64,000 nt of DNA. Origin: Rhizobiaceae bacterium (GTDB lineage: Bacteria; Pseudomonadota; Alphaproteobacteria; Rhizobiales; Rhizobiaceae). The DNA is taken from NCBI GenBank assembly GCA_019635775.1, contig JAHBYU010000002.1, positions 310,001-374,000 of the forward strand, written 5' to 3'. Below, in pieces: positions 6,708-44,563 of this stretch (position 1 is the first letter of the stretch; every line of letters begins with the position of its first letter). The notes under the pieces are model-generated. The model did not search any database, had not been told where the DNA came from, and saw only the letters and a list, made by a program, of their open reading frames with translations. A program made the position numbers and the translations under genes.

Positions 6708-6963
6708 TGTTCTTTTGCCTTTCGTTTCACGTCCCTGTCGGTTCCCGCGGCTAAGCCTCTGCGACTTGTCCTACCCGTGGTGACGGGAGAGAAAGGCGCA
6801 TCTTCGAGACGGTCGAGAGCGGAGACACGGGAGGCCGAAGCACTTGAGACTTCATCAGGGGCGAACCCCAACCCTCCGTTCAGCCCCCAGCAGGACCGGC
6901 AGACTGCGGCGGTCTATATAGTGTTTTGGCTGGAAGGCAAGGGCTTGCTTGCCTGAGTGGGCT

Positions 6964-8880
6964 TCAAACTCCGGAAGGCTTGGGCTGATTGGGGAAGAAG
7001 CGTCCGACGGTTCTCTGCTTGCCGAACAGGGCGTCGTATTGCAGCAGCCGAAAATCGTTGATCAGCGGGTCCACCTTCTTCTGCTGCGACCAATCCGGCG
7101 TAGGGCCGGCCGGAGCGATCAGAACGTGTCGCTCGATCACGTCATAACGTGCGTCCACCCGACCGAGGAACCCGGTGTAGTAAGGGTGCTCGATGCCGGC
7201 GGTCTTCAAAAGCTTGAGGGGAATGAGCGCGGGGCTGATCGAGCCGATGTCTTTCATCGGGCCGGTCCGGTTCGACCAGACGACAAGCGGCGTCTCCCGG
7301 TGCCTGGCAAGCGTTTCCGGCGCCTCCCGTCGCTCGGGCACGGAGCCCGCCATGAAACCTGTCTCTATGTAGCCCTGGTTGAGCGGTGGAAGGTGGTCTC
7401 CAAAGAAGACGATGACAGTGTGCCGATTACGCTTTTGCGCCCAGTCTATCAGCCGCTTGAGGCTGCGGTCGGCGTCTGCCACGCTTTCGGCATAAGATTG
7501 GATAGACTGGCGCGTACGATAGCTCGCGACCGACTCGACCTTCACGCTGGCGTCCGAATAGCGGTTCGGTTCGTAGGGCCCATGGCCCTGCAGGCTGACG
7601 GCGAAGGTAAAGAAGGGTCGGTCCGTGGCGTCGGCGCGCTTGATGATCTCATCCGTCAGAGCATCGTCGGACACAAGAGGCCCGCGCGAGGCCATAGGCG
7701 GCAGTTTCTCGATCGACAGGAAGCGGTCGAATCCGAAGGCATCGTAGACGTTCTCGCGGTTCCAGAACCATCCCTCGAAAGGATGTATTGCGGTCGTCTC
7801 GTAACCTTCCGACCGGAAGAAGCTTGCAAGCGAGGGCATCGGCCCGCGCACATATTGCTGGTAAGGTATGCTGCCATAGGGCAGGAAGGCGTTGGAAAAT
7901 CCGGTCAGCGCCTCGAACTCGACATTGGCGGTCATGCCCCCGAACTCCGGCGAGAACATCGAGCCTGAGCGCAGCGCACGAACGGTCGGTAACGGGTCCG
8001 GCGTGATGGTGGTTTGGGGCAGTAGCGTAGGATCCCAGAAGGATTCGCTCATGACCACGACGATGTCCGGCTTTTCCTCAGGCATCGAAATTCCTGTCGG
8101 GCCGGGCTTGATCGCGTCGAGGATCTCGTCGCTGTAGGCCGGCGGTGCGAGCACCTTCGCCATCGGAACATTGAGCGCGAATGCGATGGCAAAGCCGTTC
8201 GAGGCGTAGTTTTCCTTCTGGTCCCACATGATGGGGATGATCTGCAGACGGTCACGCGTCCATGAGAACGTCGCGAAGTCCATGATCGATACGAAAAATG
8301 CGAGCGCCGGCACGACGACGGCGAAACGCGCAGCGCGCATCCGCCAGCGTATCGGAGGACGGGACCGGTGCCAGTGGCGCCACACGACCACAAGAAGGAA
8401 CAAAGCAAGCGCGCCGCCGGCCGCGATGGCGACGGCGGTGAAGGGACGCTCGCGTACCAGAAGAGGTGCAAGCTCCATGATCTGCCGGGAATAGAGGAAG
8501 TCGGTCGGATAGAGCGGATCACCCAGATAGGAGATCTTCTGGTTGCCAATTGCAGCCAGCAGCAACGCAATTGGGGCCAGAAAGAAAATGCCGCTGTGGC
8601 GGCGTCCGAAAAGCGCGTCAAAGCCGATCAGCAAAAGGGTGAACAGAACGACCGTCGTCCAGCCGGGGCGAAACGGCTGGCTGAAAAACTCGACGGTCTG
8701 CTGCAGCGAGCCGCGGGCAATCACCTCAATCAGGAACACAAGCGTTGCCGACAGAAGTGCGCTTACAAGCAGCGAAGCGCAGCATTCGGCAGTGCGCCGG
8801 ACTGGCCGGCTTTTGTGCCAGCCTTCTTCCTGCCGCGGGGCCGAACCCGCGGACGTTGCATGTGAACTCGGATTTGCCAA
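6964..8880 (-). CDS. Membrane phosphoglycerol-transferase-like protein (LTA synthase/sulfatase fold)
   Basis: A 638-aa protein with about five N-terminal transmembrane segments (35-220) and a large periplasmic sulfatase/alkaline-phosphatase-fold domain. Expected catalytic motifs are visible: PDIVVVMSESFWDPT (metal-binding Glu and presumed nucleophile region), GGMTANVEFEALTGFSNAFLPYG and VIVFFGDHLPP. It is related to LtaS, OpgB and the rhizobial cyclic-glucan phosphoglycerol transferase CgmB; by inference it decorates a periplasmic glucan or other envelope glycan. The start is TTG 8880 with an AGGA ribosome site 8 nt upstream; there is no better in-frame ATG. It is a single gene divergent from fabD. 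Confidence 0.82.
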   Translation of the reverse strand: MANPSSHATSAGSAPRQEEGWHKSRPVRRTAECCASLLVSALLSATLVFLIEVIARGSLQQTVEFFSQPFRPGWTTVVLFTLLLIGFDALFGRRHSGIFFLAPIALLLAAIGNQKISYLGDPLYPTDFLYSRQIMELAPLLVRERPFTAVAIAAGGALALFLLVVVWRHWHRSRPPIRWRMRAARFAVVVPALAFFVSIMDFATFSWTRDRLQIIPIMWDQKENYASNGFAIAFALNVPMAKVLAPPAYSDEILDAIKPGPTGISMPEEKPDIVVVMSESFWDPTLLPQTTITPDPLPTVRALRSGSMFSPEFGGMTANVEFEALTGFSNAFLPYGSIPYQQYVRGPMPSLASFFRSEGYETTAIHPFEGWFWNRENVYDAFGFDRFLSIEKLPPMASRGPLVSDDALTDEIIKRADATDRPFFTFAVSLQGHGPYEPNRYSDASVKVESVASYRTRQSIQSYAESVADADRSLKRLIDWAQKRNRHTVIVFFGDHLPPLNQGYIETGFMAGSVPERREAPETLARHRETPLVVWSNRTGPMKDIGSISPALIPLKLLKTAGIEHPYYTGFLGRVDARYDVIERHVLIAPAGPTPDWSQQKKVDPLINDFRLLQYDALFGKQRTVGRFFPNQPKPSGV

Positions 8881-41239: not shown

Positions 41240-41932
41240 ATGCCGGAAGCACCCAAGCAGATCCCGCTTGATCTTGCTCATCGCTCCGGCCACTCGCGGG
41301 AGGATCTGGTCGTCTCTGAAGCCAACAGGCAGGCGGTCGCAATGATCGATGCCTGGCCGAACTGGCCCGCTCCGGTGGTCGTGCTCGCGGGTCCGGCTGG
41401 ATCCGGGAAGTCCCACCTCGCTGCTATCTGGGCGGATAAGGCCAATGCGGTCTTTTTCGATTCAGGCAGCATCGAAACCGAACTGGAGGAATCGCGGGTC
41501 GACCACCCGGTCGTCATCGATGATGTAGACGCTGGTCTCGACGAGCAGGGGTTGTTTCACCTGATCAATGCGGCGCGAGCGTCTGGAAGCTATGTGCTGT
41601 TGACGTCGCGCAGCTTTCCGTCGGCCTGGCGCGTGAAGCTGCCTGACCTTGTGTCGAGGCTGCAGGCGGCAGCGACCGTCGAGATCCTGGAACCCGACGA
41701 TCATCTCCTGGCCGCCGTCATAACCAAGCTGTTCGCCGACAGGCAAGTCGAGGTGGAGCCTCATGTCGTGCAGTTTCTGGTCAGGCGGATTGAGCGTTCA
41801 CTGTCAACCGCGATAGATATCGTGGACAGGCTGGACAGAGCGGCCCTTGAGCAGAAGGCGCGCATCACGCGATCACTGGCCGCCCAGACGGTGAGCGCGC
41901 TGGACCGCGGTCAGGCCGAACTCGACTTCTGA
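41240..41932 (+). CDS. hdaA: DnaA regulatory inactivator HdaA
   Basis: 230-aa DnaA-like AAA+ protein without the DNA-binding domain. Walker A is GPAGSGKS (51-58) and the Walker B-type strand is HPVVIDDVDAGLD. The N-terminal QIPLDLAH is the clamp-binding motif expected for Hda, which stimulates ATP hydrolysis on DnaA at the replication clamp. Spaced 5 bp from the permease gene. Confidence 0.9.
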   Translation: MPEAPKQIPLDLAHRSGHSREDLVVSEANRQAVAMIDAWPNWPAPVVVLAGPAGSGKSHLAAIWADKANAVFFDSGSIETELEESRVDHPVVIDDVDAGLDEQGLFHLINAARASGSYVLLTSRSFPSAWRVKLPDLVSRLQAAATVEILEPDDHLLAAVITKLFADRQVEVEPHVVQFLVRRIERSLSTAIDIVDRLDRAALEQKARITRSLAAQTVSALDRGQAELDF

Positions 41933-42081: not shown

Positions 42082-42717
42082 ATGCCAGACGTCAAGTGGA
42101 TGATCAAAGCGCGAGAGTTCACCAACTGCAACTGCGCTTACGGGTGCCCTTGCCAATTCAATGCTCGGCCCACGCACGGATTTTGCCAGGCGGTCGTCGG
42201 GATGGAGATCGATGAGGGCTATCACGGCGACACCAGGCTCGACGGCATAAGATTTGCCGGAGTCTTTCGCTGGCCAGGCGCAATACATGAAGGTCACGGC
42301 GAGGCTGCGGTGATCGTCGACGAGCGAGCAACCGATGAGCAGAGGCACGCGCTTCTCCGTATCCTGTCCGGTCAAGATACCGAGCCGGGCGCAACCGTCT
42401 TCCAGGTGTTCTCCACCACGCTCGAGAACGTGCACGATCCCATCTTCGCTCCCATAGACTTCGAGGTCGACATTGATGCGCGCAAGGCAAGACTGCGTGT
42501 GCCAGGGGTGACCGAGGGTCACGGTGAACCGATCAGGAACCCGGTTACCGGAGCGGAACATCGCGCGCGCATCGATCTTCCGAATGGATTTGAATATTCA
42601 TTGGCGGAGATGGGCCGAGGCTGGACAAGGGCAACAGGCCCGATCCGTTTCGAACTGTCGGACTCCTACGGCCAGTTCGCGCATATCCACCTGTCGCAAA
42701 GCGGCATCGTGCACTGA
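42082..42717 (+). CDS. DUF1326 protein
   Basis: 211 aa. The N-terminus holds a striking cysteine cluster, NCNCAYGCPCQFN (C16, C18, C22, C24) followed by C35, suggesting metal binding; two HGE/HG-containing segments (HEGHGEAAVIVDE, TEGHGEPI) are also conserved in the family. Function is unknown; DUF1326 genes are often next to DUF2182 genes, as here. The AGGAGGAAGCC ribosome site is near-perfect. Confidence 0.85.
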   Translation: MPDVKWMIKAREFTNCNCAYGCPCQFNARPTHGFCQAVVGMEIDEGYHGDTRLDGIRFAGVFRWPGAIHEGHGEAAVIVDERATDEQRHALLRILSGQDTEPGATVFQVFSTTLENVHDPIFAPIDFEVDIDARKARLRVPGVTEGHGEPIRNPVTGAEHRARIDLPNGFEYSLAEMGRGWTRATGPIRFELSDSYGQFAHIHLSQSGIVH

Positions 42718-42721
42718 CACC

Positions 42722-43609
42722 GTGAGCGACACGACCTTAGAAGCAATATTGCGGCGCGATCGCACACTTGTCGTGATTGCGCTGGCCGTCGTTACGGTGC
42801 TGTCTTGGGCCTATTTGCTGCATCTTGGTTATGAAATGGGTGGCTCAAGCGCTCCGGCGCAAGGTGATGCGAGCGCAGAAATGCCCGGCATGGACATGCC
42901 CGGTATGGACATGCCCGGTATGGACATGTCTGGCATGGACATGCCGGGAATGGATATGGGCGCCGCCATTGCACCTGGTTTTCGAGCATGGACACCGGCC
43001 GATTTCGGCTTCATCTTCATGATGTGGGCGGTCATGATGGTGGGAATGATGACACCGTCGGTGACTCCGATGGTGCTCCTTTATGCCCAGGTTGGACGCA
43101 AGGCGCATATCGACGGCAAACCCTTCGCGCCCACTGGATGGTTCTTCGCGGGCTACGTGCTCGTTTGGGTCGTTTTCAGCATCTTGGCCACTATCTGCCA
43201 ATGGGTTCTGGCCAGCATGGCGTTGCTGACGCCGATGATGGCCACCGGAAGCTCGACCGTCGGAGGTCTCGTTCTGATCGGCGCTGGTCTCTATCAGTGG
43301 ACGCCGCTCAAAGAGGCCTGCTTGCGCCAATGCCGGGCGCCGATCGCATTCCTGTCAAGCCGTGGCGGATTTCGTCCCGATCCGTTTGGTGCGCTCCGGC
43401 TCGGTATCGACCATGGAACATACTGCCTCGGCTGTTGCTGGGCATTGATGGCGCTTCTGTTCGTAGGCGGCGTCATGAACGTGGCCTGGATAGGTGGTAT
43501 CGCGCTTCTCATCCTGCTCGAGAAGACGTTCCCGGCGGGACGGCTGGTCGCACGTCTATCCGGCACGATGCTTGCCGCTGCTGGCGTCTGGCTCCTTTTC
43601 GGTGCCTAG
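42722..43609 (+). CDS. DUF2182 membrane protein with Met-rich repeats
   Basis: 295 aa. One N-terminal helix (about 15-34) leads to a periplasmic methionine-rich segment (residues 53-79; five MPGMD/MSGMD units, 11 Met in 26 residues), then about five helices with many Met and paired Cys (FMMWAVMMVGMM, YCLGCCWALMALL, CLRQCRA). Such repeats bind Cu(I) or Ag(I) in copper proteins, so metal handling is inferred. Start GTG 42722 lies 4 bp after the DUF1326 stop, showing an operon. Confidence 0.85.
   Translation: MSDTTLEAILRRDRTLVVIALAVVTVLSWAYLLHLGYEMGGSSAPAQGDASAEMPGMDMPGMDMPGMDMSGMDMPGMDMGAAIAPGFRAWTPADFGFIFMMWAVMMVGMMTPSVTPMVLLYAQVGRKAHIDGKPFAPTGWFFAGYVLVWVVFSILATICQWVLASMALLTPMMATGSSTVGGLVLIGAGLYQWTPLKEACLRQCRAPIAFLSSRGGFRPDPFGALRLGIDHGTYCLGCCWALMALLFVGGVMNVAWIGGIALLILLEKTFPAGRLVARLSGTMLAAAGVWLLFGA
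42881..42958 (+). repeat. Tandem 15-bp repeats encoding MPGMD units
   Basis: Five in-frame copies of a 15-bp unit (consensus ATGCCCGGYATGGAC) with synonymous variation between copies, indicating selection on the encoded Met-Pro-Gly-Met-Asp repeat rather than a very recent slippage event. Confidence 0.85.
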
Positions 43610-43682
43610 TGGAGAGTCATTGGATGCCAGCGGTGCAGGGATTCGTTCGCTAAAACGTTGCGAGAAGCGCCAAGTGAATCCC

Positions 43683-44357
43683 ATGGACAAAAACACGACC
43701 TCGACAGGCAATTCGACAGGAGAGTCGGCCACTGTTGCGTTTATCGACCTCTCCGGGTTCAGCGCCATCGCGGACGTTTACGGCGATGCATCGGCGATCC
43801 AGGTACTCGAAATCTTCGAGCGCATGGTCGGTGAAGCACTGAGCGCCTACGATCCGCCGATCAAGTGGATAGGCGACGAGGCGATGCTTTCATTTCCCGA
43901 GCCGGAAATGGCCATCCAGGCGCTGGGAAGACTGTTGCACGCTTGCCGGCAGGAGCCACGCTTGCCTCTGACGCGAACGGGGGTAAATCATGGACCGGTC
44001 ATACGCCGATCAAATGACCTGTTTGGTTCGACAGTAAATATCGCCGCACGGATTGCGTCGCTTGCGTCTCCAGGGCAACTGCTGGCTACCCAGCCAGTGG
44101 CCGATGCGTCTGCGGCAAAGGGAATCTCCCTGCGCGATCTGGGAAAGGTCGCCATCAGGTCAGTAGCGAATGAAATCTCGCTTTATGAGATTGAGCTGGC
44201 GCCGTCGCCGGATCCTGCCTGGATCGATCCGGTTTGCAAGATGCACGCGCCATACGAAGCCTATCGCCGCGAACGTCCGGAGGGTCCGTGGTTCTGTTCG
44301 CCCCGGTGTGCCGAAGCCTATCGAAGGTCGCCTCAGACTTATCCGCTCAGGCGATAG
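43683..44357 (+). CDS. Class III adenylate cyclase fused to a YHS domain
   Basis: 224 aa. The cyclase domain (about 15-172) has metal-binding aspartates D22 (VAFIDLSGF) and D66 (KWIGDEAML), the adenine-specifying K61/D112 pair, and the transition-state N119/R123 (VNIAARI); it looks complete and specific for ATP. The C-terminal 40 residues are a YHS domain: DPVCKM (C185) and FCSPRCAEAY (C205, C209), a metal-binding module seen in copper/heavy-metal proteins. It lies 73 bp after DUF2182. Such a small soluble fusion suggests cAMP output controlled by a metal ion (inference). Confidence 0.88.
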   Translation: MDKNTTSTGNSTGESATVAFIDLSGFSAIADVYGDASAIQVLEIFERMVGEALSAYDPPIKWIGDEAMLSFPEPEMAIQALGRLLHACRQEPRLPLTRTGVNHGPVIRRSNDLFGSTVNIAARIASLASPGQLLATQPVADASAAKGISLRDLGKVAIRSVANEISLYEIELAPSPDPAWIDPVCKMHAPYEAYRRERPEGPWFCSPRCAEAYRRSPQTYPLRR

Positions 44358-44486: not shown

Positions 44487-44563
44487 CGGAGTGTAGCGCA
44501 GCCTGGTAGCGCACCTGATTTGGGATCAGGGGGTCGCAGGTTCGAATCCTGCCACTCCGACCA
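44487..44563 (+). tRNA. tRNA-Pro (TGG)
   Basis: 77 nt including encoded CCA. Acceptor CGGAGTG/CACTCCG, D-arm GTAGCGCAGCCTGGTAGCGC, anticodon loop TTTGGGA with TGG, T-loop GGTTCGAATCC. Confidence 0.96.

Follow-up and report, generated by a model that had tools for sequence, protein, structure and literature searches.

In a 64,000-nucleotide stretch from a Rhizobiaceae bacterium (assembly GCA_019635775.1, contig JAHBYU010000002.1, positions 310,001 to 374,000 of the forward strand; hereafter the window), three consecutive genes encode a DUF1326 protein, a membrane protein of the DUF2182 family and a class III adenylyl cyclase that carries a C-terminal YHS domain. We consider it likely that a copper-activated cyclase has landed here beside a copper-chaperone pair, two separate copper parts thus having become neighbours. 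The three-gene grouping is a local feature of this lineage, almost unique to this genome, rather than a conserved system; cyclase-YHS genes as such recur among metal-export genes in two phyla, Pseudomonadota and Actinomycetota.

42082..42717, + strand: DUF1326 protein, 211 amino acids (aa), ATG start, Cys cluster C16/C18/C22/C24 (Pfam PF07040, E=1.9e-58)
42722..43609, + strand: PpoB2/DUF2182 membrane copper-chaperone family protein, 295 aa, GTG start (Pfam PF09948, E=2.9e-62)
42881..42958, + strand: Met-rich loop (MPGMD repeats), 15-nt tandem repeat, 11 Met in 26 residues
43683..44357, + strand: class III adenylyl cyclase with C-terminal YHS domain, 224 aa, ATG start
43722..44186, + strand: cyclase catalytic domain, residues 14-168 (D22, K61, D65, D112, N119, R123)
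44223..44342, + strand: YHS domain, residues 181-220 (D182, C185, C205, C209), Pfam score below cut-off

The cyclase resembles a copper-activated enzyme

The three open reading frames (ORFs) occupy the + strand with gaps of 4 bp (DUF1326/PpoB2) and 73 bp (PpoB2/cyclase), as a preliminary description made from the letters alone had reported. The reading frame of the cyclase is intact and its catalytic domain matches PF00211 with 33.4 bits (cut-off 21.9). All six class III catalytic residues are present and invariant across a 29-row alignment; five of them had been assigned correctly before, while the second metal aspartate is D65 and not D66, position 66 being a glutamate. To the three YHS cysteines already named (C185, C205 and C209) D182 has to be added, and D182, C185, C205, S206 and C209 are invariant in the same 29 rows. 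The YHS domain, whose Pfam score is below the cut-off, was assigned because it keeps the pattern D-P-V/I-C ... F-C-S-x-x-C, which is found in 8/8 rows of one alignment and 11/11 rows of an actinobacterial one. Ten actinobacterial homologues share with the window cyclase every one of the six catalytic residues and of the four YHS ligands, and a PDB sequence search with this protein found cyclase relatives.

The only paper on a cyclase with a YHS domain that we found, in mostly non-subscription literature, is that of Linder (2015; PMC4626032). According to this study, a Mycobacterium phlei cyclase with a C-terminal YHS domain is inactive in Mg2+ and is switched on by 1-10 uM Cu2+, while Zn, Fe, Cr, Co and Ni do not activate it; activation in vitro is reversed by EDTA and requires the YHS domain. 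The same text counts 26 such proteins, Rhizobium included, treats the function of the copper-activated cyclase in the cell as "open to speculation" and, as far as it was accessible, holds no discussion of gene neighbourhoods; the accessible parts of PMC5552934, PMC9948745 and PMC10141476 contain no YHS cyclase. The window protein is like this M. phlei enzyme (MpAC, AC-YHS, class IIIc), as portrayed there, in having one cyclase domain followed by a YHS domain, complete catalytic residues, an aspartate plus three cysteines, and a similar length (224 versus 233 aa). It differs in that the copper response of MpAC was measured, whereas the window cyclase is known from its sequence, and in that its gene adjoins a DUF1326-PpoB2 pair. 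The earlier statement that no metal-to-cyclic AMP (cAMP) system of this composition had been described is wrong for the cyclase, because that paper describes a Cu2+-activated cyclase-YHS protein of this architecture; the metal-to-cAMP idea itself is probably right for the window cyclase, its principle being already published.

DUF1326 and PpoB2 form a free-standing pair

The DUF1326 protein matches PF07040 with 198 bits (Pfam cut-off 25), and the cysteine cluster C16/C18/C22/C24 attributed to it is correct. Its neighbour matches PF09948 with 210.4 bits (cut-off 28.7), a family now named PpoB2 with the label "Copper chaperone". The 11 methionines in 26 residues that had been noticed in its loop are likewise there (residues 54-79); only 2/10,000 shuffles of the protein reach that density, in the underlying DNA (42881-42958) a 15-nt unit is repeated in tandem 5.2 times, and comparable MPGM/MDM-type stretches occur in several PpoB2 relatives (L069, L070, L072, L073, L077 and L078).

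Among 199 genomes of the family, PpoB2 was found in 61 and DUF1326 in 58. DUF1326 lies within 1.5 kb and on the same strand at 64 of the 75 PpoB2 places (76 match rows minus the second piece of the G185 gene), in two gene orders seen 33 and 31 times, in agreement with the earlier remark that the two families often co-occur; the layout is also annotated in Phyllobacterium zundukense. DUF1326-PpoB2 is a free-standing, widespread two-gene module. A constant third gene after the pair was rejected, no ORF cluster besides the pair being common to more than 5 of 22 stretches (20 fetched pair loci, L022 and the window). We also observed a dnaK/dnaJ-like setting in 4 of these 22 stretches, and two tandem DUF1326 genes preceding PpoB2 at L080 and L082.

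A PDB sequence search returned nothing for either protein of the pair. In mostly non-subscription literature we found no paper on DUF1326/COG5588 and a single one on DUF2182/COG5486 (PMC2855505). There, PpoB2 of Marinomonas mediterranea (COG5486) is a putative membrane metal-binding protein involved in copper transfer to a tyrosinase; the window protein belongs to the same Pfam family by name. The Marinomonas gene stands in an operon with the tyrosinase PpoB1, which its product serves, whereas the partner of PpoB2 in the window is DUF1326. No multicopper oxidase (MCO) match was obtained in the window within 8 kb of the cyclase, and no search was made for a tyrosinase; with a single case in print, such a client gene is not taken as a hallmark of the family.

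Copper genes near the cyclase in Pseudomonadota

A scan of named genomes gave 44 loci, 39 of which (L023-L061) were taken as cyclase loci, the other 5 being partial or YHS-only; up to 8 kb of DNA was available on each side, with less than 8 kb on one side at L026, L033, L037, L046, L047, L051 and L061. Clustering of the ORFs around these loci brought out P-type copper ATPases, CueR-like MerR regulators, MCOs, CusAB-like efflux and Crp/Fnr genes, all named by eye. CopA and MCO were chosen as headline markers because they are textbook copper genes, and the marker proteins used for counting came from the cyclase neighbourhoods themselves. By this count, CopA or MCO lies within 8 kb of the cyclase at 14/39 named loci versus 0/38 random stretches (Fisher p=3e-5, uncorrected for kinship). 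The controls comprise 20 chromosomal and 18 same-plasmid stretches, each with 0 for CopA/MCO; of eight random plasmid draws, two were excluded for overlap with a cyclase locus, and a CusA-like match was seen in 1/20 of the chromosomal ones. L060 counted as positive only on short CopA matches, which leaves 13/39 without it.

At the rhizobial copper islands of R. johnstonii pRL11 and A. vitis pRvVAR031b, a homologous cyclase, 72-77% identical, is divergent from a CopA-CueR pair with 147 bp and 164 bp between them, respectively; in A. vitis the partners also include a CopZ-like protein, an MCO and CusA-type efflux. The R. etli cyclase has genes for a copper oxidase, plastocyanin and DUF411 no more than 6 kb away. 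Unlike these islands, the window gave no match to any of the island markers within 8 kb. In a quick tree, the copper-positive rows fall mostly in one clade, largely Rhizobium (14/18), with M. muleiense, a Hyphomonadaceae row and Rhodococcus as separate copper-positive rows. The copper label needs 7 changes on this tree versus 14.6-14.7 in shuffles, and starred branches force 3; L104 (same record as L041) was dropped, L058 is absent and L053 is represented by 21% of columns.

Three of the ten plasmid loci first read (L100, L105 and L107) carry none of the core copper markers. At L024 of M. escarrei, a decayed-looking double-YHS copper ATPase piece (6822-7586) ends 415 bp before an intact cyclase-YHS gene; this CopA-like piece was excluded from the copper-gene count. 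At L030, L031 and L039, about 3.5-6.4 kb after the cyclase, there is what we take to be a CBASS-type-like set, presumably a nucleotidyltransferase-like and a patatin-like gene with one gene between.

The insertion site between hdaA and tRNA-Pro

The three genes are bordered by two features:

41240..41932, + strand: left border, hdaA-like gene, common to the window and two congeners
44487..44563, + strand: right border, tRNA-Pro

The left-border gene at 41240..41932 is one we assume to be hdaA-like. In the congener G151, tRNA-Pro follows 80 bp after the hdaA stop and the DNA beyond is collinear with the window, which has about 2.5 kb extra between hdaA and tRNA-Pro, containing just the three genes. 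In the congener G067, the DNA beyond hdaA departs from that of the window; the pair has no match there, and the cyclase none below E=1e-30. A fourth genome of the genus (G583, 87% complete) gave no hdaA match and was left out of the site comparison. In Mesorhizobium alhagi and M. camelthorni, a cyclase gene in the same orientation and without the pair is found about 2 kb upstream of this tRNA-Pro, with a glycosidase-like gene between cyclase and tRNA-Pro in the M. alhagi contig (L014). Because the G151 site is empty and the Mesorhizobium cyclase sits near the same tRNA-Pro without the pair, the simplest reading would be that cyclase and pair reached the site separately.

The Mesorhizobium loci also speak for a chance neighbourhood, in which the cyclase is unrelated to the pair or to copper here and owes its place near tRNA-Pro to gene loss or transfer. 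The surroundings of the cyclase gene are very variable and broken-looking copies are found in two genomes of the family (G068 and G147), as one would expect under this explanation. Against it stand the intact frame of the window cyclase with all catalytic and YHS residues kept, and the recurrence of metal genes near its homologues in two phyla; we regard mere chance as unlikely.

Metal-export genes near the cyclase on actinobacterial plasmids

Eleven of the 13 actinobacterial plasmid records with a cyclase were read. In Iamia, M. gallinarum and M. rufum a P-type ATPase gene directly adjoins the cyclase gene or overlaps with it. Annotated ATPases lie within 8 kb at 8 of the 11 loci, and 2 more (Rhodococcus) have an annotated MCO, the M. 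aubagnense locus having neither annotated within 8 kb. Three 50-kb control stretches from actinobacteria (four drawn, three used) contained two P-type ATPases in all, each from the M. rufum plasmid, plus one MCO; such plasmids are metal-rich, so that the 8/11 count is less striking than the abutting genes. The cyclase-YHS fusions, for which the preliminary description had proposed a search, recur repeatedly beside metal-export genes.

These loci bear on the metal that is sensed. The SPC motif is present in 7/8 examined neighbouring ATPases, an ArsR/SmtB regulator accompanies 6 of those 8 loci, and one actinobacterial cyclase gene directly precedes a cadmium transporter gene. An SPC motif together with an ArsR/SmtB regulator marks a cobalt/nickel/zinc-type setting, and for this reason copper may not be the only metal and the metal may differ between clades. 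The corresponding alternative for the window, a cyclase whose signal is not copper but a redox change or a different soft or divalent metal (Co, Ni, Zn, Ag), has to contend with the CopA, CueR and MCO genes adjoining the Pseudomonadota homologues, and with a window neighbour that belongs to a copper-chaperone family. In PMC4626032, moreover, the assayed M. phlei relative answered Cu2+ alone among the metals tested, reversibly by EDTA. For the window cyclase we consider another ligand improbable.

The three-gene grouping is not conserved

With E<1e-30 and at most 14 candidates scored per genome, the cyclase was matched in at least 10/199 family genomes, a lower bound because the first look scored no more than those 14 candidates. 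The pair lies within 10 kb of the cyclase in two of these ten, the window and G147. The G147 cyclase is a C-terminal fragment with an internal stop, and the G068 protein loses alignment in its YHS part. At the 39 named loci DUF1326/PpoB2 was found within up to 8 kb of the cyclase in none (0/39), in a search sensitive enough to detect members only 31-39% identical, as in G147; within 8 kb at the 10 fetched plasmid loci the count is again 0/10. Thirty plasmid records with the cyclase and 33 with PpoB2 have no record in common. At least 6/10 of the family cyclases (G086, G080, G103, G071, G038 and G160) are also named loci (L027, L037, L039, L049, L055 and L056), so the family and named samples are not independent. 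An order-wide profile search (397 genomes, E<=1e-30, 7 candidates per genome) matched only the window's own gene, and no frequency was taken from it because either few carriers were drawn or a first look at 7 candidates misses them.

Two side observations belong here. In G147 the decayed cyclase-YHS fragment (L022 9544-9804, equal to G147:C15:35543-35803) lies on the opposite strand beside a distantly related DUF1326-PpoB2 pair. In Rhizobium, L063, L064 and L065 match the cyclase (70-78% identity) in its YHS end alone, being either remnants or YHS domains of other proteins.

A dedicated, conserved three-gene cassette, with membrane protein and cyclase as one signalling unit, was what the preliminary description had proposed, together with the statement that rarity of the neighbourhood elsewhere would refute it. 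Rarity is what we found (0/39 named loci, 0/10 plasmid loci and 2/10 in the family, one of them a fragment), and the conserved cassette was rejected on the 199 family genomes and 39 named loci. The common strand and short gaps favour it, as do the joint lack of all three genes at the G151 site, with no pair and no cyclase match in G067, and the proximity of the G147 fragment to another pair; PpoB2 is also present anywhere in the genome in 8/10 cyclase genomes versus 53/189 others (p=0.0014, uncorrected for kinship). However, the G147 cyclase is truncated and on the opposite strand, in 2/10 family cyclase genomes the pair is not matched anywhere, and the plasmid records do not overlap. Since three-gene co-occurrence is rare, this explanation is largely refuted and we hold it to be very improbable.

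A receptor for cAMP

A Crp/Fnr-type gene lies within 8 kb of the cyclase at 9/39 named loci, and at L034, L036, L038, L040, L043, L044 and L060 it is convergent with the cyclase within about 330 bp. The phosphate-binding segment of the neighbouring protein reads AEAS.FS..YHCDAV (YHCDGV in L038). An Arg in this segment is canonical for cAMP binding, and cAMP receptors read R-S/T-A. The neighbouring protein is not claimed as the cAMP effector, the canonical Arg being absent. At these seven loci, and likewise at L106 and L109, the Crp/Fnr-type regulator convergent with the cyclase has H-C-D in place of R-S/T-A and might sense a metal or redox state. In the window the Crp/Fnr-type gene is not matched within 8 kb. 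In this genome, a 172-aa open frame (L094) consists of a cyclic-nucleotide domain only and keeps the GE...PRTA pattern, which we take to be the receptor motif. Besides, this genome encodes a double-YHS copper-ATPase-like protein on another contig.

Discussion

If a copper-activated cyclase has indeed become the neighbour of a copper-chaperone pair, as we favour, PpoB2 with its Met-rich loop would bind soft copper at the inner membrane and pass it on, with DUF1326 as its presumed cysteine-bearing partner. The third gene would encode a soluble adenylyl cyclase of class III, of the YHS type already described in print. Copper entering or leaking into the cytosol would bind D182, C185, C205 and C209 of its YHS domain, which would shift the cyclase dimer so that cAMP is made; copper activation is extrapolated here from the M. 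phlei relative in vitro. The cAMP would then act via a cyclic-nucleotide-binding protein encoded elsewhere in the genome. The three genes may be co-transcribed. Of the earlier metal-to-cAMP proposal, both parts have precedents in the two papers, copper handling by PpoB2 (PMC2855505) and metal sensing by a YHS cyclase (PMC4626032), while the conserved three-gene cassette did not hold.

Several results weigh against this copper reading, besides the cobalt/nickel/zinc-type settings on the actinobacterial plasmids. Neither CopA nor MCO is found within 8 kb at 25/39 named loci, nor in the window. The YHS domain scores 17.3 bits with Pfam PF04945, under the cut-off of 30.3. At the 21 pair loci outside the window there is no CopA or MCO match (0/21) and a CusA-like match at one, which makes the PpoB2 family name the basis for assigning copper to the pair. 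Promoter and terminator scans of the region gave nothing beyond chance and speak neither for nor against co-transcription. Finally, among the 8 cyclic nucleotide monophosphate-binding proteins of this genome we recognised by eye no canonical cAMP-responsive Crp, judged by what we assume to be the receptor motif.

A broader proposal, in which metal overload is generally signalled by cAMP as second messenger and the cyclase is wired here to the membrane pair so that cAMP reports the copper that PpoB2/DUF1326 handle, is doubtful. The link of cyclase-YHS genes with metal-export genes is the most useful result; it was not found in the literature examined, which is no proof of its absence from print. 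Altogether, the copper ATPases, CueR, MCOs and, at some loci, resistance-nodulation-division (RND) efflux genes in rhizobia, together with the P-type ATPase genes that adjoin or overlap the cyclase gene on three actinobacterial plasmids, suggest a metal-efflux response as the physiological setting of these cyclases. If this is true, a diffusible metal signal, cAMP, would be added to the direct copper regulators already known.

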